In this document: positions 46,184-59,069 of the stretch, in pieces
Layout of the letters: every line of letters begins with the position of its first letter
How positions within the stretch are numbered: the first letter of the stretch is position 1
NCBI GenBank assembly: GCA_040752835.1
Contig: JBFMGG010000007.1
Coordinates: 310,001-374,000 of the forward strand
DNA length: 64,000 bases
Source: Campylobacterota bacterium
GTDB taxonomy: Bacteria > Campylobacterota > Campylobacteria > Campylobacterales > Sulfurimonadaceae
Direction: 5' to 3'
Translations under genes and position numbers: made by a program
The notes under the pieces: generated by a model
What the model was told of the DNA's origin: nothing
The model's input: only the letters and a program-made list of their open reading frames with translations
The model's database searches: none

Positions 46184-47245
46184 TTGGCAACCATTTACGC
46201 AATAAAAGGTTTATTACTAGAAGAAGTATTACTTAAGTTACTAAGAGAAACAGGTTATTTGACAGTAGATGATGCCACTGGTGATCCTACTTTAAAAATA
46301 GGTCGATCTGGTTTAGAAGTGAAAGGAAGAGGTTGGAATCATCAGATTGATGCGATAGCTGATTTCATTATGTCACCTCCTTTTTCATACCCAATAAGAT
46401 TATTGCTTGAAGCAAAATTTTATACTTCTAAAGTTGGTATTGACATTGTAAGAAATGCTGTTGGTGTTTTGAAAGACGTAGACGAATATTGGGTATCAAA
46501 CGATCGAAATCCTATTTCTAAACCTAGATATCATTACCAATATGCGATTTTTACATCTTCCTCGTTTACAAATCCAGCACAAAGGTACGCATTTGCTCAA
46601 GACATTTATTTGATCAAACTAGAAAATAATAAATACTTTTTACCTATTATTGATGCTATACGAAACTTAACTTTCCAAGACTTCCATGGAACATCAGATG
46701 ATTCAATAAATATAAATATGTCAGAGTTGAGAAGGGCAATAAGACACAGTCTTAGAAGCAATGATCGGAATATATTGATGGACTATGCTACGAGTAATAG
46801 ACTTGATCAAAGTATCTTTAATGAGATATTCCAATCATGCCACTCACTGAGTTTGTCATATCTAGGTATGTTAGGGAATAGGTTTCCTGTATTTTTAACA
46901 CCATCACCAGCATTTGATATAAACTATTTACTAAGAAATCCACGAATCAGAATATGTTGGGATGACAACTATTGGTATTTGGTTAATGATCATGCGAATT
47001 GTAGACGCTTACGAGAAGAGGATATATTGTTTTCATTCGACTTGCCTGGTGAACTATTTGAACTGTATGCTGAAAACAATATGCTGACTCAACATCGGGC
47101 TTTAGAGTTGAAACGGGAACTGATGTCAAACATTCAAATTATTTTTAAAGACATTGAACGTGGAATCATGTCTTCTTTGGAATTGACACTTGATAATGAC
47201 TGGATTGAGCGAATAAGGGAACATCTTAATACTGAAGACAGATAA
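46184..47245 (+). CDS. putative PD-(D/E)xK restriction-endonuclease-like protein, AT-rich
   Basis: 353 residues. Residues 40-95 fit a PD-(D/E)xK nuclease core: EVKGRGWNHQIDAIADF, with the aspartate, then IRLLLEAKFYTSKVGIDIVRNAVGVLKDV, with the ExK, as in Mrr-type enzymes. The remainder is unrecognised, with a second domain beginning near 175. Codon use is AT-rich (many TTA, ATA, AAT) against a GC-rich background, so recent transfer is likely. The start is TTG, supported by AAAGGAAA eight bases upstream; an ATG at 46177 is out of frame. No methyltransferase is adjacent, so it may be a lone nuclease or defence gene. Confidence 0.6.
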   Translation: MATIYAIKGLLLEEVLLKLLRETGYLTVDDATGDPTLKIGRSGLEVKGRGWNHQIDAIADFIMSPPFSYPIRLLLEAKFYTSKVGIDIVRNAVGVLKDVDEYWVSNDRNPISKPRYHYQYAIFTSSSFTNPAQRYAFAQDIYLIKLENNKYFLPIIDAIRNLTFQDFHGTSDDSININMSELRRAIRHSLRSNDRNILMDYATSNRLDQSIFNEIFQSCHSLSLSYLGMLGNRFPVFLTPSPAFDINYLLRNPRIRICWDDNYWYLVNDHANCRRLREEDILFSFDLPGELFELYAENNMLTQHRALELKRELMSNIQIIFKDIERGIMSSLELTLDNDWIERIREHLNTEDR

Positions 47246-49752: not shown

Positions 49753-50967
49753 TTACTCTTGCTCTTTTTCGGATTTGAACGTGTAGATCGGCTCTTGGGT
49801 CGGATCGTCGATCACCGCTTCGGTGATCGTGACGCTCTGCAAATTCTTTTTTGACGGGCAGCTGTACTGCAGCGGCAGCATCGATTCCTCGATAATTCCC
49901 CGTAATCCCCGTGCTCCGACACCCCGATCGATCGCTTTTTGCGCCACCGCTTCGAGGGCTTTATCGTCAAAGTTCAGCTCGATGCCGTCCATGTCAAAAA
50001 ACGCCTGAAACTGCTTGATGAGGGCGTTGTCCGGTTCGGTGAGGATCTGGATCATCTGATCTTTGGTGAGTTCTCCCAGCTGCGCGATGACGGGGATGCG
50101 CCCGATAAACTCGGGGATCATTCCGTAGTGGACCAGCGCTTTGGCGTCGATCTTTTTGGGCTTGGCGGCAATGCCCGCCGTGCTTTTAGAAAATCCCACT
50201 TTGTTCGTCTTTTTCGTATGGGTGTCGGGGACGAGGCCGACGAATGCGCCGCCGCAGACGAAAAGGACGTGGGAGGTGTTGAAAAGTACCGTTTCGGTCG
50301 TGGAGTTTTTGCGGCTCCCTTTGACGGGTACGTAGACTTCGGCACCCTCGAGAATCTTCAATAATCCCTGCTGTACCCCTTCGCCCGATACGTCGCGCCC
50401 CATCGTAGAGCTCTCTCCTTTGCGGGCGATTTTGTCGATTTCGTCGATATAGACGATACCGCGCTGGGCGAGATCGATGTCGTAGTTCGCTGCGGCGAGG
50501 AGGCGGGAGAGGATGCTCTCGACGTCTTCGCCGACGTATCCCGCTTCGGTGAGGGCGGTCGCATCGGCGACGGCAAAGGGGACCTGCATGATTTTGGAGA
50601 GCGATTTGGCGAGCAGCGTTTTACCGCTCCCCGTCGGGCCGACGAGGAGGATGTTGGATTTTTCCAGCTCGACGTTGTTGTAGACCGGATTTTCGATCCG
50701 TTTGTAGTGGTTGTAGAGGGCGACGGCGAGGACCTTTTTCGCCTCCTCCTGACCGATGATGTATTTGTCGAGGAATTCGACGATCTTCTCGGGAACGGGG
50801 AGCTGCTGCTGCATCGCGGAGCGCTGCTCGTAGCGTACCTCTTTTTGTAATACTCCCGCACAGGTGGTGACGCACTCGTTGCAGATGTGGGTCGTCTCCG
50901 AAGAGAACATCTTTTTGACTTCGCTCTGGGGGCGTCCGCAGAACGAGCAGGTTTTCTCAATACTCAT
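49753..50967 (-). CDS. clpX: ClpX unfoldase of the ClpXP protease, in the nif region
   Basis: 404-residue AAA+ unfoldase: N-terminal zinc-binding domain ([15 protein letters not shown]...HICNECV), Walker [15 protein letters not shown] near 120, Walker [12 protein letters not shown], sensor-2 [13 protein letters not shown]. It recognises substrates and feeds them to ClpP. The start is ATG 50967, overlapping the clpP stop. It lies in the same strand run as the SIR2-like, peroxiredoxin-like and NifX-like genes, with gaps of 60 bases or less, behind a sigma-54-type promoter. From memory, standard Campylobacterota clpX lies next to accA/fabZ or mreB, so this may be a second, nif-dedicated copy. 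Confidence 0.93.
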
Positions 50968-51563
50968 CACGCATCCTTTGGGGTGAATTTGGTGAGGATT
51001 TCATCCGCCAGACCGAACGCGATCGCCGCTTTGGCTTCCATGTAGTTGTCACGGTCGGACTCTTTTTCGATCACCTTGGTACTTTGTCCCGTCGCTTCGG
51101 CGAGGATGACATACAAACGGCGTTTGAGATTCAAAATATGTTTGGTGTGGATCTCGATGTCGCTCGCCTGACCCGAATAGCCACCCAGTGGCTGATGGAT
51201 CATGATCTCGGCGTTAGGGAGCATGTAGCGGTGGGACTTTTCGCCGCAGGTAAAGAGGACCGCGGCCATCGAGGCGACCAGACCCATCGCGTAGGTATGG
51301 ACGGGGGCGTTGATGAGGTTCATTGTATCGAGGATCGCCAGACCCGCCATCACCGAGCCGCCGGGGGAGCTGATGTACATGTGGATCGGCTCGTCCGGGT
51401 CCATCGCCTCCAGATAGAGCAGCTGGGAGACGATGACCCCCATCATGTGGTCGTCGATCGCTTCGGTAATGACGATGACGCGGTCGCCGAGGAGTTTGGA
51501 GAAGAGGTCGAAATAGCGCTCTCCGCGCGGGGAAACATCTTTGACGGTGGGAATGTAGGGCAT
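50967..51563 (-). CDS. clpP: ClpP protease subunit, in the nif region
   Basis: 198 residues of the S14 serine protease. Catalytic serine in GLVASMAAVLF near residue 98, histidine in EIMIHQPLGG near 123, and aspartate in ESDRDNYM near 172. The N-terminus MPYIPTVKDVSPRGERYFD has the loop that contacts ClpX. It shares a base with the clpX start (TGATG) and begins 10 bases after the SIR2-like stop, so it may be transcribed with the nif genes upstream. A separate housekeeping clpP is likely elsewhere. Confidence 0.94.
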   Translation of the reverse strand: MPYIPTVKDVSPRGERYFDLFSKLLGDRVIVITEAIDDHMMGVIVSQLLYLEAMDPDEPIHMYISSPGGSVMAGLAILDTMNLINAPVHTYAMGLVASMAAVLFTCGEKSHRYMLPNAEIMIHQPLGGYSGQASDIEIHTKHILNLKRRLYVILAEATGQSTKVIEKESDRDNYMEAKAAIAFGLADEILTKFTPKDA

Positions 51564-51573
51564 CTTTGACTCC

Positions 51574-52407
51574 TTATTGCACGAATGCTTGGATGAATTC
51601 GCGAAGCGGCATTTTGATCACTTCGAGATGGTGTTTGTCGATAAACTTCTGCTCTTTTTTCCCCAACTCTTTGTCGCTGAGGACGTATCCCCCCTCCAGA
51701 TCGAGGGTGAGTTCGTTGGCGACCATCCGGTCGGTGTCGCGGTCGAAAAAGGTCCCCAAAAAGAGGTATTTGCGCGTTTTACGATAGGTTTTGAGCACTT
51801 TGGGCACCGCGTAGCCTCCCATTGCCTCGGTGAGCCAGTCGACGTAATCGGCGTCGCTGATGACGAAACTGGGGTTGGGCAGAGGCGTACCCATCGGTTT
51901 GAAGAGGATTTTTTCCGCACTCTCCAGCGCCTCTTCGTCAACCAGAAAATACTTCTGATTCTCGACGTCGTATTCGTACACTTCGTAGCGGTAGTCGTTG
52001 CCGAATATCCGCGCTTTTCCGACGATCATGCAGTGCGGTGTGTAGGCCAGAAGCTCCTGGAACTTCGTGTCGCGGTTGGTGTCGATGAGGTAGCGCGGCG
52101 ACATGTCAACGATCGCCTTGTGCAGGGGGGTGGGATCGAAGGGCTTGGTGTAGATGTGGTTGATGAGCTGGGTCATGTACTCCACACCTCGGCGCTGCTC
52201 TAGATGCATCGCGGCGCGCGAATACTCGTACATCAATCGGGGTGCCATCGCCCGCCCGCCGTTCATGGCGAGGATCAGCGAATCGCTGTCAAAGGGGACG
52301 TTCTCCCCCTCCTTGGTCGTGATCCCCTCAAACACGCCGATCCCGAAATAGGGGATCGTGGTCTGGTTGCGGATCTCTTTTTTGATCGTTTCGAGTGGGG
52401 TATTCAT
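51574..52407 (-). CDS. SIR2-like (SIR2_2-type) NAD-binding protein in the nif region
   Basis: 277 residues with SIR2-fold traits: an N-terminal glycine motif TIPYFGIGVFEG replacing GAGIS, helical AMAPRLMYEYSRAAMHL, the central AIVDMSPRYLIDTNRDTKFQELL (equivalent of TTN.D), and late KYLFLGTFFDRDTDR. Proteins of this group bind NAD and often hydrolyse it in defence systems; others deacylate. Here no defence partner is present, and its neighbours are a NifX-like gene, a peroxiredoxin-like gene and clpPX. The ATG at 52407 overlaps the upstream stop (ATGA). Role in nitrogenase control is possible but unproven. Confidence 0.65.
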   Translation of the reverse strand: MNTPLETIKKEIRNQTTIPYFGIGVFEGITTKEGENVPFDSDSLILAMNGGRAMAPRLMYEYSRAAMHLEQRRGVEYMTQLINHIYTKPFDPTPLHKAIVDMSPRYLIDTNRDTKFQELLAYTPHCMIVGKARIFGNDYRYEVYEYDVENQKYFLVDEEALESAEKILFKPMGTPLPNPSFVISDADYVDWLTEAMGGYAVPKVLKTYRKTRKYLFLGTFFDRDTDRMVANELTLDLEGGYVLSDKELGKKEQKFIDKHHLEVIKMPLREFIQAFVQ

Positions 52408-52922
52408 CCGTGGCATCCTTTTCCGGTGTAGCAGTTTTGGGCGGCGGCGATTTTGACAAGGGCGTTTTCGACCGAAAACGGTCCGCTCAGGTCGCGGAGA
52501 ACCTCGTCGTAAAAAAGGGCGCCGTCTTTTGAAATCACAAACAGCGCTTTGGCGAACTCTCCGCCCAGCTCGCCGGGAGCGAGGCGGATGCCGTAGTAGT
52601 CGCCGAACGCTTCGTCCGCGTCGATCCCGAACCGCCATTCTTCCAGTTCGGGGTCGTCGTGTTTGTCGGTAGCGACAACGAGGGCTTTGGTGATCGCGTC
52701 CAGCGCGTTGAGGGAGAGGAGGTCGTCGAGCTCGCGCAGTTGGGTGAGCAGGGCCTCATCGAGAAACGGTGCGGTGACGATCAGCTGTGTCGCTCCGCTC
52801 TGGCCGCCGATGTGGAAGGTTTCGCCCGAAGCGTTTTTGAGCTCGACGCGTTCGGAAGCGTAACCGATATCGAGCGGCAGCTCTTCGAGCCGAACGGTGG
52901 ACGTGTGGTAGCGGATCTGCAT
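52404..52922 (-). CDS. thiol-peroxidase-like protein lacking catalytic cysteines
   Basis: 172 residues resembling Tpx peroxiredoxin: an N-terminal beta hairpin (HTSTVRLEELPLDIGYASERVEL), an ALVVATDKHDDP segment like the Tpx ISxDLPFA, DEAFGDYYGIRLAPGELGG, and AKALFVISKDGALFYDEVL. The usual peroxidatic cysteine (in DTxVC) is missing: the region reads TAPFLDEALLTQL. The resolving cysteine (SRFC) is also gone. The only two cysteines are in the tail NCYTGKGCHG. It may bind a peroxide or metal, or act by the C-terminal pair. The ATG at 52922 has an excellent ribosome site, CCAGGAGGCGC. It is second in its operon. Confidence 0.7.
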   Translation of the reverse strand: MQIRYHTSTVRLEELPLDIGYASERVELKNASGETFHIGGQSGATQLIVTAPFLDEALLTQLRELDDLLSLNALDAITKALVVATDKHDDPELEEWRFGIDADEAFGDYYGIRLAPGELGGEFAKALFVISKDGALFYDEVLRDLSGPFSVENALVKIAAAQNCYTGKGCHG

Positions 52923-52978
52923 AAGCGCCTCCTGGATGCCTGTTGTGAAGGATCGATGCATTTTGTATTCTTGCGGCT

Positions 52979-53419
52979 TCATACCTGGTGGACGCAGCGG
53001 AGGTATCGGGTGATTTCGGTAGCGATGATGAAGTGCTCGACCGCCTCGGAAGCGGTTTTGAGAAACGGGGGGATTTTGTGGACCTTGATCCCGACGTGTT
53101 TCATCGCATAGAGGGTATTGATGCAGTAGTTGCCCGCGATGAGGACATTGCATTTTCCGAGGGCCTGGAGGAGAACGTAGTGTTCGCTGATGTGCGAAGG
53201 GTTCTGCATCATCGCGCATTCGCATTCGCACGCTTTCATCGTGGGATCGCTGATCATGGTTCCACCGTACCGCGCCCACGGATTCGGGCGGGTTTCGACG
53301 AAGCTGTAGCGGACCTCCTGCTGTTCGGAGAGGACCTCGTAAAAGGCGAACTGCGCGCAGGTACAGGGGTTGTCGTGGCTGAGCGATCGGTAAGGGTCCA
53401 TCGGTACGGCGACGATCAT
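52979..53419 (-). CDS. NifX/NafY-like FeMo-cofactor protein with Cys-rich insert
   Basis: 146 residues with the dinitrogenase-cofactor fold: MIVAVPMDPYRSLSHDNPCTCAQFAFYEVLSE and VLIAGNYCINTLYAMKHVGIKVHKIP. An insertion, KACECECAMMQNPSHISEHYV, adds cysteines and histidines; the N-terminal half has CTCAQ. The extra cysteines could hold a cluster. It is the first gene of the minus-strand unit with the peroxiredoxin-like, SIR2-like and clpPX genes, divergent from nifB, with GAGGAGCAG as ribosome site. The ATG at 53419 is chosen for this reason over an upstream in-frame start. Confidence 0.75.
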   Translation of the reverse strand: MIVAVPMDPYRSLSHDNPCTCAQFAFYEVLSEQQEVRYSFVETRPNPWARYGGTMISDPTMKACECECAMMQNPSHISEHYVLLQALGKCNVLIAGNYCINTLYAMKHVGIKVHKIPPFLKTASEAVEHFIIATEITRYLRCVHQV

Positions 53420-53456: not shown

Positions 53457-53472
53457 TGCAATTATCGTTCTG
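53457..53472 (-). promoter_or_regulatory. sigma-54-type promoter for the NifX-like/SIR2/clpPX run
   Basis: Minus-strand CAGAACGATAATTGCA: AGAACG, four bases, TTGCA, a full match to the nif pattern. The predicted start is near 53445, 26 bases before the ATG of the NifX-like gene. Confidence 0.75.
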
Positions 53473-53490: not shown

Positions 53491-53519
53491 AAATGTCGCC
53501 GAATAGACAAAAATGTCAC
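53491..53519. promoter_or_regulatory. candidate enhancer (UAS) between the NifX-like and nifB promoters
   Basis: AAATGTCGCC (53491-53500) and AAATGTCACG (53511-53520) are direct repeats exactly 20 bases apart. TGT at 53494 and ACA at 53507 also form TGT-N10-ACA, the NifA binding pattern known from Proteobacteria. It lies between the two divergent sigma-54 elements and could serve both. Confidence 0.5.
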
Positions 53520-53548: not shown

Positions 53549-53564
53549 AAGAACGGCGTTTGCA
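53549..53564 (+). promoter_or_regulatory. sigma-54-type promoter for nifB
   Basis: AAGAACGGCGTTTGCA: AGAACG, four bases, TTGCA. The predicted start is near 53576, leaving a leader of 60 bases before the nifB ATG at 53636. Confidence 0.75.
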
Positions 53565-55061: not shown

Positions 55062-56177
55062 ATGGCGCTCATCAACGACACCACTCTGCGCGACGGGGAG
55101 CAGGCTCCCTACGTCGCGTTCAATACCGCCGAGAAAATCCGGATCGCGACGCTGCTCGATGCGTGCGGAGCGGACGAACTCGAAATCGGTATCGCGGCGA
55201 TGGGCGAACGGGAACGCGACGACATCAAAGAACTTTTGGATTTGGGGCTCGGGGCGCGGATGATGACATGGAACCGGATGAAGATGGAGGACCTCGACGC
55301 CTCGCTGTCGTGCGGGGTGCGGGCCGTCGATCTCTCCATCCCGATTTCGGATCTGCTGATCGGGGTGAAATTCGGAGGGAACAAACGGAAAGTCCTTGGG
55401 GAGCTCGAATCGGTCGTGAGGGCGGCGAAAGGGGAAGGGCTGTTCGTCTGCATCGGGGGCGAGGACAGCTCACGCGGCGACAACGGATTTATTCGCGACG
55501 TGATGGAACTCGCCCGCGAGTGCGGAGCGGACCGTTTCCGCTACTGCGATACGGTGGGGATACTGACCCCGACACAGACCTATAATACGATCAAAACGCT
55601 GTGCGCGTACGATCTGCTGCCCATTGAAATGCATACCCACAACGATTTCGGCCTGGCCAATGCGAACGCCCTCAGCGGCCTCGATGCGGGGGCCGTGAGT
55701 CTCAATACCACCGTCATCGGGTTGGGAGAGAGGGCGGGGAACGCCTCGTTCGAGCAGATTCTGATGGCGCTGCGTCGTCTGTACGGCGAAAACCGCATCA
55801 TCGATCCGGTCAAGATCAAAGAGCTGGTTTCGACGGTGTCGAGTGCGGCGAATATGCCGCTGCTTCCCAACGCTCCCGTAGTGGGTGAGCGCCTTTTTGC
55901 GCATGAAAGCGGCATCCATGCCGATGGGATGATGAAAGATTCGCACGCGTACGAGCCCTATGAAGCCGAAGAGGTGGGATGCGTCCGCGAGTTTCCGATC
56001 GGCAAACATTCGGGCAGTGCGACGATCCGCTACCACCTCGAACGGATGGGAATCAGTGCCGATACGCGCATCCTCTCTTCGCTGCTCCCCAAAATCCGTG
56101 AGATCGTCACGGCGCGTAAACGGGTACTCGAATCGTATGAGCTCAAATCCCTCTATCAGGAAGCGGTATGTTTATAG
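55062..56177 (+). CDS. nifV: homocitrate synthase NifV
   Basis: Condenses acetyl-CoA with 2-oxoglutarate to homocitrate, the organic part of FeMo-co. 371 residues: NDTTLRDGEQAPYVAF at the N-terminus, the metal and substrate site MHTHNDFGLANANALSGLDAG, and VIGLGERAGNASFEQILMAL. Being in the nif operon directly after nifB and lacking the leucine-feedback domain of LeuA argues against 2-isopropylmalate synthase. AAGGAGCC precedes the ATG. Its 3' end overlaps the GNAT gene by 10 bases. Confidence 0.94.
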   Translation: MALINDTTLRDGEQAPYVAFNTAEKIRIATLLDACGADELEIGIAAMGERERDDIKELLDLGLGARMMTWNRMKMEDLDASLSCGVRAVDLSIPISDLLIGVKFGGNKRKVLGELESVVRAAKGEGLFVCIGGEDSSRGDNGFIRDVMELARECGADRFRYCDTVGILTPTQTYNTIKTLCAYDLLPIEMHTHNDFGLANANALSGLDAGAVSLNTTVIGLGERAGNASFEQILMALRRLYGENRIIDPVKIKELVSTVSSAANMPLLPNAPVVGERLFAHESGIHADGMMKDSHAYEPYEAEEVGCVREFPIGKHSGSATIRYHLERMGISADTRILSSLLPKIREIVTARKRVLESYELKSLYQEAVCL

Positions 56178-56995
56178 GATGGCTCAAATACGCCGACGTC
56201 GCGGAACTGGCCAAAATTGCCGAGGAAGCGGGGGTGCTGCTCGATGGGTACCATATCAAACTCATGATGATGCACGCGCCGCATTTGTGCTACGGTGCTT
56301 ATGAAGAGGGGCGGCTCGTCGGGGCGGCCATCGGGGTCGTGTACGAGAAAAGCGCGGCCGTCAAATATTTCATGGTTCGTCCCTCGCATCAGAATCTGGG
56401 GATCGGGCAGCGTCTGTTCGAGACGCTGCTCGGAGCGCTGGAAAGCGAATCTCCGGCATTGTCGCTTCTTTCGAGCGCGGCGATGCGCCCTTTTTTCGAA
56501 GGATACGGATTTGGGGCCGCATGCGAAGTGGGACGGTTTCTCAACGTCGGGAAAGTTCCCCCGTTCAGTTTTACGAACGCCCAGGCCAAGGAACTCGACG
56601 GCGGAAACTTCGACGCGATACTCCGCCGGCTCGATTACGAGACCTACGGCGAGGACCGGAGTGCCTTTTTGCTCGATGAGATGGAGCGGAACAGTTCTCT
56701 CAAATTCGCACTGCCCAATTCGTTTCAGCACTCCAGTGTCATCAACGCGCGCGGCGTCTACCTGGGGCCGTGGGAATGCCGCGAAGGGTTCGAAGAGGAA
56801 GCGGAGAAGATGATGCGCGGCGTTTTGTATTTTCGCGGGCTCAAAAAAGTGATTGCCGACGTGCCGCTCCAGAACCGCGCCGCCGTCGATCTCTACGAAC
56901 GTTACCACTTCCAGTGCAAAGAGACGTTTTATCAGATGGTGCGGGGCGGGGGCCAAACGGTGAAATTCGAAAACATCTACGCCTTTTCACTCTGA
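56168..56995 (+). CDS. GNAT-family acetyltransferase-like protein in the nif operon
   Basis: 275 residues with two GNAT-like halves. The first (about 10-125) has YGAYEEGRLVGAAIGVVYEK and FMVRPSHQNLGIGQRLFETLLGALE, with the acetyl-CoA loop QNLGIGQ, and FEGYGFGAACEV. The second (150-275) is an acetyltransferase-18-like domain ending KVIADVPLQNRAAVDLYERYHFQCKETFYQMV. N-acetylation of an unknown substrate is likely. It overlaps nifV and lies upstream of small nif genes. A role in nitrogen fixation is implied only by the operon. Confidence 0.75.
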   Translation: MFIGWLKYADVAELAKIAEEAGVLLDGYHIKLMMMHAPHLCYGAYEEGRLVGAAIGVVYEKSAAVKYFMVRPSHQNLGIGQRLFETLLGALESESPALSLLSSAAMRPFFEGYGFGAACEVGRFLNVGKVPPFSFTNAQAKELDGGNFDAILRRLDYETYGEDRSAFLLDEMERNSSLKFALPNSFQHSSVINARGVYLGPWECREGFEEEAEKMMRGVLYFRGLKKVIADVPLQNRAAVDLYERYHFQCKETFYQMVRGGGQTVKFENIYAFSL

Positions 56996-57037
56996 TTTGA
57001 ACGATAAATGCATTCAACCTACAAACAAGGAGCCGTT

Positions 57038-57229
57038 ATGTCTGAAGAAATCGATCCCAAAAAAGAGCTGGCCAAGCTCAAACGCCTCGCGACCGAGGTC
57101 GCATCCCAGATCCACGACATCGTCGAAGATACCCTCTGGAGCGATTACGTCAAAATGCCCGATCTCGCCGCACAGCTTTACGACGCCGTGAAAGCGGCCA
57201 ACGACTATAAAAAGGCCCACTCCCTCTAA
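57038..57229 (+). CDS. small nif-associated protein, DUF683 / CCE_0567 type
   Basis: 63 residues, two-helix hairpin: LAKLKRLATEVASQIHDIVEDTLWSDYVKMPDLAAQLYDAVKAANDYKKA. The LKRxATE...HD..EDL....Y..(I/M)P.LA...Y.A pattern matches a small family that travels with nifX-nifW in diazotrophs and has been described as metal-binding in cyanobacteria. Ribosome site AAGGAGCCG before the ATG at 57038. It is clearly in the nifB operon. Confidence 0.65.
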   Translation: MSEEIDPKKELAKLKRLATEVASQIHDIVEDTLWSDYVKMPDLAAQLYDAVKAANDYKKAHSL

Positions 57230-57239
57230 GGGGGCTTTC

Positions 57240-57518
57240 ATGGCGACGAAAGAGGAAGTGCTCGCCCTGGAGATCTGCGAATGCGGCGGCAAGAGCGTCG
57301 CCGAAGCGATCGTCATCTTCCAGGAGACCGACCTGCCGTACAAAAAAGCGAAAAAACTCGTCACCGAGTGTGACAAGAGCTGCTGCCGCGCAGCCCTTCT
57401 CAGACTTTTTGAAATGAGTTATTTCGGGACGTTCGATTATGATGAGATCGAGCGGCTGATTCAGCTGCGCCATGATAAACTCGCGGAAATTCTCGAGAGG
57501 ATGAAAACGGGCCGATGA
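57240..57518 (+). CDS. small cysteine-containing protein of the nif operon
   Basis: 92 residues, helical, with four to five cysteines arranged as ICECGG near residue 13 and ECDKSCCR near 44. The rest is charged helix (FDYDEIERLIQLRHDKLAEILERMKTG). This cysteine arrangement could bind an Fe-S cluster or metal, as in other nif accessory proteins (e.g. the NifT-to-NifZ group), but I do not recognise it. The start follows GGGGGCTTTC; its stop overlaps the next gene's ATG (ATGA). Confidence 0.6.
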   Translation: MATKEEVLALEICECGGKSVAEAIVIFQETDLPYKKAKKLVTECDKSCCRAALLRLFEMSYFGTFDYDEIERLIQLRHDKLAEILERMKTGR

Positions 57519-57955
57519 TGATCCGCCGTGCAACGATGGACGATCTCGAAGCGATGGGAACGCTGTTGTGCGAGCTCTTCGCCGTCGAAGACGATTTTAC
57601 GATTGACGTTGCGGCGCACCGGCGGGGGCTCGCGCTGCTGATCCAAAACGAGAACGCGGCAGTGTCGGTCGCCCTGAGCGGGGAGAAAATCGTCGGGATG
57701 GCGACGATGCAGCCGCTGGTGTCGACTGCGGTGGGCGGAAACGTCGGGCTGATCGAAGACGTCATCGTCACCGAATCGTATCGGGGCAGGGGGATCGGCA
57801 GAATACTGCTCGAAGAACTCATCGCCGAGTCGCGGCGCAGGGGTTACCGCCGTATCGCGCTGGCGGCCGATCGCCGCAACGGACGAGCCATCGCCTTTTA
57901 CCGCCGTTACGGTTTCGTCCCCGGTAACATGGGGATGCTCTACCGCCTCGACTGA
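57515..57955 (+). CDS. GNAT-family N-acetyltransferase
   Basis: 146 residues, single GNAT domain: MMIRRATMDDLEAMGTLLCELF, IEDVIVTESYRGRGIGRILLEELIAESRRRGYRRIALAADRRNGRAIAFYRRYGFVPGNMGML. The acetyl-CoA loop is RGRGIG. Acts on an unknown substrate. It ends the nifB-led plus-strand unit, after which a 199-base gap with the nifH promoter begins. It is unlike the two-domain GNAT protein upstream, so the two are not recent copies. Confidence 0.85.
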   Translation: MMIRRATMDDLEAMGTLLCELFAVEDDFTIDVAAHRRGLALLIQNENAAVSVALSGEKIVGMATMQPLVSTAVGGNVGLIEDVIVTESYRGRGIGRILLEELIAESRRRGYRRIALAADRRNGRAIAFYRRYGFVPGNMGMLYRLD

Positions 57956-58049
57956 TCGTCTCTTTCCACCCTTTTCATACCGGACCGCTTTACCCACCGT
58001 CGCTTTAGAGGGAAAAATCCCCCTCCTGCAAAACCCGTTCCTACAAATT

Positions 58050-58103: not shown

Positions 58104-59069
<966 letters not shown>

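Follow-up and report, generated by a model that had tools for sequence, protein, structure and literature searches.

Why should a nitrogen-fixation (nif) gene cluster carry a ClpP-ClpX pair of its own, together with genes for SIR2-like and thiol-peroxidase-like (Tpx-like) proteins? The question is raised by a 64,000-nucleotide (nt) stretch of DNA, here called the window (GenBank assembly GCA_040752835.1, contig JBFMGG010000007.1, positions 310,001 to 374,000), from a Campylobacterota bacterium with a genome of 2.13 Mb in 11 contigs, whose nearest named relatives are Sulfuricurvum. Five minus-strand genes at 49753-53419 of the window encode a NifX-like, a Tpx-like, a SIR2-like, a ClpP and a ClpX protein. 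We propose, with a probability of about 0.62, that this unit encodes a ClpX(P) module dedicated to nif, with pseudoenzymes as its partners. Little is known of how fragile, oxygen-damaged nitrogenase parts are disposed of, a matter that bears on the transfer of nitrogen fixation to new hosts, for which the instability of NifB is a stated hurdle (PMC5715403). The module offers concrete, phylum-wide gene candidates for nif-specific proteolysis and points to a family of nif-linked pseudo-sirtuins that is widespread.

The nif-linked ClpX and ClpP are second copies

The last two genes of the unit, clpP (50967-51563, minus strand, 198 amino acids (aa)) and clpX (49753-50967, minus strand, 404 aa), were assigned using curated protein models. 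The ClpX product, hereafter nif-ClpX, scored 506.9 bits against TIGR00382 (cut-off 370.75) and 545.8 bits against NF003745 (cut-off 359), and its zinc-binding domain matched PF06689 with 53.9 bits. For the ClpP product, nif-ClpP, matches were obtained to PF00574 (233.7 bits) and NF001368 (259 bits vs. a cut-off of 249), with a score below the cut-off of the equivalog TIGR00493 (238.1 vs. 308.6 bits); the positions of the Ser-His-Asp triad are conserved, as judged by eye in an alignment with E. coli ClpP. A further clpX (C6:242555) and a further clpP (C11:24321) lie on other contigs of the genome, and share 48% and 51% identity, respectively, with the nif-linked proteins. The first-pass annotation, made from the window alone, had predicted such second copies, noting that clpP and clpX usually lie apart in Campylobacterota. 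Both points were borne out: the window does not hold the only clpP and clpX of the genome, and the housekeeping pair is separate in complete relatives such as genome G016.

A housekeeping-type ClpX was present in every genome of the 30 relatives and controls, nif-ClpX being an additional copy. The phylogeny that the annotation had suggested separates the two types clearly. In a tree of 76 ClpX sequences, the 39 nif-linked ones form a single clade with support of 100/100, the 29 housekeeping proteins of Campylobacterota form another (100/100), and eight sequences from other phyla stand apart. Nif-ClpP likewise forms its own clade, with 100% support in the Shimodaira-Hasegawa-like approximate likelihood ratio test (SH-aLRT). 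As both nif copies fall in clades of their own they are, judged by these trees, old paralogues; a recent duplication of the housekeeping ClpX was rejected, the nif-ClpX clade being deep and separate.

Nif-ClpX retains the Walker motifs, the GYVG pore loop (pore-1) and the sensor-2 GAR motif, and its IGF-type ClpP-docking loop reads VGF in the window and is of the MGF type in lineages without nif-clpP. Two other loops differ from those of the housekeeping types. The RKH loop at the pore entrance, which is typical of ClpX without strictly defining it, is RKH in the listed housekeeping types and RKN or RKS in nif-ClpX, and pore-2 reads GRDVSG vs. TRDVSG. Since the RKH and pore-2 loops of ClpX contact substrates, it is natural to infer that nif-ClpX chooses its substrates differently.

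In one relative (G091), whose Tpx-SIR2-ClpX unit lacks clpP, a second clpP that is housekeeping-like by sequence was seen about 1.2 kb upstream of nifH (L292, 9711-10301, plus strand).

The module accompanies nif genes across Campylobacterota

We surveyed 397 Campylobacterota genomes with a completeness of 90% or more, and found NifD in 73, the SIR2-like protein in 72 and nif-ClpX in 56. The SIR2-like protein co-occurred with NifD in 70 genomes, nif-ClpX with NifD in 55, and nif-ClpX with the SIR2-like protein in 55 (Fisher p from 1e-50 to 1e-71, about 1e-50 for nif-ClpX and NifD, with relatedness ignored). Families f1, f4, f6, f7 and f10 all show the pattern, and the nif linkage of the module is strong. 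Where both genes are present, the distance between the SIR2-like gene and nif-clpX is 0-38 bp in 31 genomes, 204 bp in one and about 610-710 bp in 23; the last of these gaps is clpP-sized and contains clpP wherever loci were read. In genome G406 the genes for nifB, nifV, nifH, nifD, nifK, the SIR2-like protein and nif-ClpX are all broken, and the housekeeping clpX and clpP are open. This joint decay is what a role of the module in nitrogen fixation would predict.

The G406 nif cluster (L284, C1:1422000-1441900) appears to be decaying as a whole, since frames of at least 150 codons cover 28% of it vs. about 80% elsewhere.

The unit is compact and shares a predicted promoter region with nifB

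The arrangement of the five genes was described correctly in the first-pass annotation, including the close spacing. The NifX-like stop codon is separated by 56 nt from the Tpx-like ATG at 52922, which is the most likely start and has AGGAGG just 5′ of it. The Tpx-like and SIR2-like genes overlap by 4 nt (ATGA), 10 nt lie between the SIR2-like gene and clpP, and clpP and clpX overlap by 1 nt (TGATG).

The sigma-54 nif-type promoter that had been placed before the unit is present in a form conserved in relatives, but not in the textbook one. The pattern TGGCAYR-N4-TTGCW gave no match at the unit with up to two mismatches allowed, and was dropped in favor of the lineage form RGAAY-N5-TTGCA. A predicted -24/-12 element of this form (AGAACGATAATTGCA; 53457-53471, minus strand) lies 37 nt 5′ of the unit's first ATG, and others are predicted for the divergent nifB (53550-53564, plus strand) and upstream of nifH (58105-58119, plus strand). 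The window holds four matches vs. 0.5 expected, a number reached in none of 100 shuffles, although only two of the four are independent, the form having been framed after the sites of the unit and nifB were known. Relatives carry equivalent -24/-12 elements at the equivalent place, one directed at the unit and one at nifB. In the window, the space between the divergent promoters holds a TGT-N10-ACA motif (53494-53509, no strand assigned), a possible NifA upstream activator site common to both, proposed on position only, as the window contains six such motifs vs. 6.4 expected by chance. The motif is found at about equal distance in the relatives' loci L060, L062, L071 and L077.

A perfect match to the lineage form at 58027-58041 (minus strand) points leftwards, without an evident minus-strand gene.

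The SIR2-fold and Tpx-fold proteins resemble pseudoenzymes

The third gene of the unit (51574-52407, minus strand) encodes a SIR2-fold protein of 277 aa. Its SIR2 label falls below threshold by sequence (21.0 bits against PF13289, SIR2_2, vs. a gathering cut-off of 24.5) but is clear by fold; in the family alignment all 26 members match PF13289 at E of 0.1 or less, the best at 2e-8. The AlphaFold model (predicted local distance difference test (pLDDT) 81.7) matches SIR2 NADase domains over the whole length, with Z 17.8 and a root-mean-square deviation of 3.3 over 231 residues for ThsA, and also matches DSR2. When aligned to ThsA by hidden Markov model, the catalytic Asn (TTNYD) corresponds to N111, which is kept, and the catalytic His (HG) to M172. 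Across 115 distinct members the Asn/His columns read N/M in 95, N/L in 13, W/H in four, and T/M, W/L and W/I in one each, so that the complete Asn-His pair occurs in none of the 115. NAD hydrolysis or deacetylation is therefore unlikely, as far as residues can tell, and binding of a ligand is possible. The suggestion of an NAD-linked partner is weakened accordingly: the NADase fold is there, but the catalytic pair is never complete. The known SIR2-domain NADases ThsA, DSR2, KomC and SPARSA share the whole-chain fold, but in the SIR2-like family the catalytic His is replaced by Met or Leu (Campylobacterota) or the Asn by Trp (Proteobacteria), and the genes lie in nif clusters instead of defence loci.

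Outside Campylobacterota, where the searches for the SIR2-like protein and nif-ClpX covered plasmids, SIR2-like relatives at about 22-28% identity were found on 72 plasmids, most of them from rhizobia. The six loci that were read all fall inside nif clusters, the SIR2-like gene usually standing near nifT/nifZ/nifB. Proteins described as SIR2 family members, and likened to ours by that description, are encoded in nif clusters of Zymomonas (ZMO1821), Rhodobacter capsulatus (Rcc03262), Rhodovulum and Pseudomonas stutzeri (PST_1325) (PMC8594446, PMC6925177, PMC9412634, PMC11332353); that of R. capsulatus was detected in wild-type cells but not in a nifA double mutant (PMC6925177). We found no functional study of the nif-linked family in the literature searched.

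The Tpx-fold protein (52404-52922, minus strand) is 172 aa long, counted from the ATG at 52922, and ends in ...CYTGKGCHG. Its structural model (pLDDT 85.8) was matched to thiol peroxidases by Foldseek at E 2e-14, and hmmsearch gave E 5e-11. It shares the fold of the H. pylori and Aquifex Tpx enzymes but lacks the peroxidatic Cys at the aligned position, the Cys of Aquifex Tpx aligning with a non-Cys column, and it has an invariant C-terminal tail of its own: G-x-G-C-H, at the end or one residue short of it, was seen in 89 of 90 distinct Tpx-like proteins. What had been called a cysteine-less peroxiredoxin has thus lost the peroxidatic Cys but carries a Cys in this tail. A search of the plasmid collection returned no Tpx-like match.

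The first gene of the unit encodes a 146-aa protein resembling NifX and the NifB C-domain (52979-53419, minus strand). This label, drawn from weak matches and a family alignment, stays below threshold: the protein scores 16.0 bits against PF02579 (gathering cut-off 26.3), six of 15 family members match weakly, and no significant relative was found in the PDB, where 1rdu is a weak match (E 0.1).

A proposed route for nif-specific proteolysis

A nif-linked ClpX is already known. ClpX2 of Azotobacter vinelandii is reported to control the levels of NifB and NifEN (Martinez-Noel et al. 2011, as related in PMC3916325), and its gene lies in the nif cluster in the order nifWZM-clpX2 (PMC9866876). In Azoarcus BH72, NifA controls the clpX and clpP genes, and the A. 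vinelandii ClpX is reported to be 76% identical to Azoarcus azo2070 (PMC3916325). Both in Azotobacter and here a ClpX paralogue is encoded with nif genes; here, however, clpP is also linked (in one lineage), and SIR2-fold and Tpx-fold genes belong to the unit. Because nif-ClpX has at most about 50% identity to any ClpX in the plasmid collection, an independent recruitment is likely on sequence grounds. No description of the ClpP-ClpX-SIR2-Tpx combination turned up in the literature searched, which misses most subscription journals.

By the reading we favor, transcription of the unit would start under nitrogen-fixing conditions at a promoter of the sigma-54/NifA type, divergent from nifB, and the unit would be expressed together with nif. 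The products would be an accessory NifX-like protein, the SIR2-fold and Tpx-fold pseudoenzyme-like proteins and the paralogous ClpP-ClpX pair. With its ATPase, pore-1 and ClpP-docking loops kept and its substrate-gripping loops changed, nif-ClpX probably unfolds different, nif-specific substrates, to be degraded by nif-ClpP or, in lineages without nif-clpP, by the housekeeping ClpP. If Azotobacter ClpX2 is a guide, the substrates are likely to be proteins of nitrogenase assembly, NifB and NifEN for example, or damaged nitrogenase. The SIR2-fold and Tpx-fold proteins, for their part, would most likely serve as binding partners that respond to ligand or redox state, and not as an NADase and a peroxidase. 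The dedicated nif ClpXP of the first-pass annotation is supported by the paralogy of the Clp copies, by the joint occurrence with NifD, by the fixed adjacency of the genes and by the conserved promoter, and its quality-control role in nitrogenase assembly is suggested by the ClpX2 comparison.

Alternative explanations

Several observations count against this proposal. No clpP lies between the SIR2-like gene and nif-clpX in 31 of the 55 genomes with both, and 17 of the 72 genomes with a SIR2-like protein lack nif-ClpX. In Sulfurospirillum the SIR2-like gene follows and overlaps nifA and nif-ClpX is absent, and genomes G107 and G143 carry the Tpx-like and SIR2-like genes without a linked Clp gene. 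The G-x-G-C-H tail is kept in these two, and its use as a simple degron for nif-ClpX is disfavored, the tail persisting where nif-ClpX is missing. Members of the SIR2-like family were likewise seen in nif clusters from rhizobia, Methylococcus, Paraburkholderia and Bradyrhizobium, where the listed neighbours include no clpX. A strict Clp linkage of the SIR2-like protein was rejected on these grounds; the protein need not be a Clp adaptor and, judging from its genomic settings, has some function independent of nif-ClpX. An adaptor role of the pseudoenzymes is consequently plausible but less sure. These same distributions, and the independence of the Cys-His tail from nif-ClpX, speak for separate, co-regulated functions, with nif-ClpXP turning over nitrogenase and the SIR2-like, Tpx-like and NifX-like proteins assembling or protecting metal clusters without ever contacting ClpX. 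We consider this possible, though doubtful, as the adjacency of the SIR2-like gene and nif-clpX in 55 genomes of several families is closer than shared regulation requires. Also conceivable, but more speculative, is that the pseudo-sirtuin and pseudo-peroxiredoxin are ligand- or redox-gated adaptors that would deliver proteins of nitrogenase assembly to a private ClpXP and in this way tie nitrogenase turnover to NAD or redox state, and that in Proteobacteria the pseudo-sirtuin family may regulate Nif proteins via other partners.

The Clp module might instead act on the regulator NifA, or on NifA signalling, rather than on cofactor-assembly proteins. The overlap of nif-clpX with nifA in G354, which lacks the SIR2-like gene, and that of the SIR2-like gene with nifA in Sulfurospirillum fit this idea, yet the unit lacks nifA and runs divergently from nifB both in the window and in most relatives, and we consider the idea unlikely. 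Still less probable is an ordinary second ClpXP that merely adds to the cell's overall capacity for proteolysis when nitrogen runs short: the core ClpX and ClpP motifs are intact, but nif-ClpX forms a deep paralogous clade with fixed changes in substrate-contacting loops and is restricted almost absolutely to diazotrophs. As for an anti-phage unit built on a SIR2 NADase and placed in the nif cluster by chance, the likeness to ThsA and DSR2 would agree with it, but the Asn-His pair is complete in none of the 115 relatives, the best PADLOC match reached only E 0.003 and the co-occurrence with nif is strict. A defence system was rejected on the catalytic residues and the PADLOC result, and the idea is hardly credible.

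Neighbouring genes and other observations

The nif genes beside the unit are nifB, nifV, a double GNAT gene, two small open reading frames (ORFs), a GNAT gene, nifH, nifD and nifK. The two GNAT acetyltransferase genes lie at 56168-56995 and 57515-57955 (both plus strand); the first, which adjoins nifV, is kept beside it even in distant Campylobacterota nif clusters, at 26-35% identity. The small ORFs of 73 and 92 aa (57008-57229 and 57240-57518, plus strand) gave no family match and, in nif clusters throughout Campylobacterota, retain their place next to nifV or the GNAT gene, at 41-92% identity. A 353-aa ORF between nifS and glnS (46184-47245, plus strand) had no NCBIfam match. An SdhA/NadB-like flavoprotein gene was observed just 5′ of nifA in Sulfurospirillum (assigned by NCBIfam) or of nif-clpX in G354 (by eye), at L279 5306-6994, L137 6671-8308 and L294 7946-9601.

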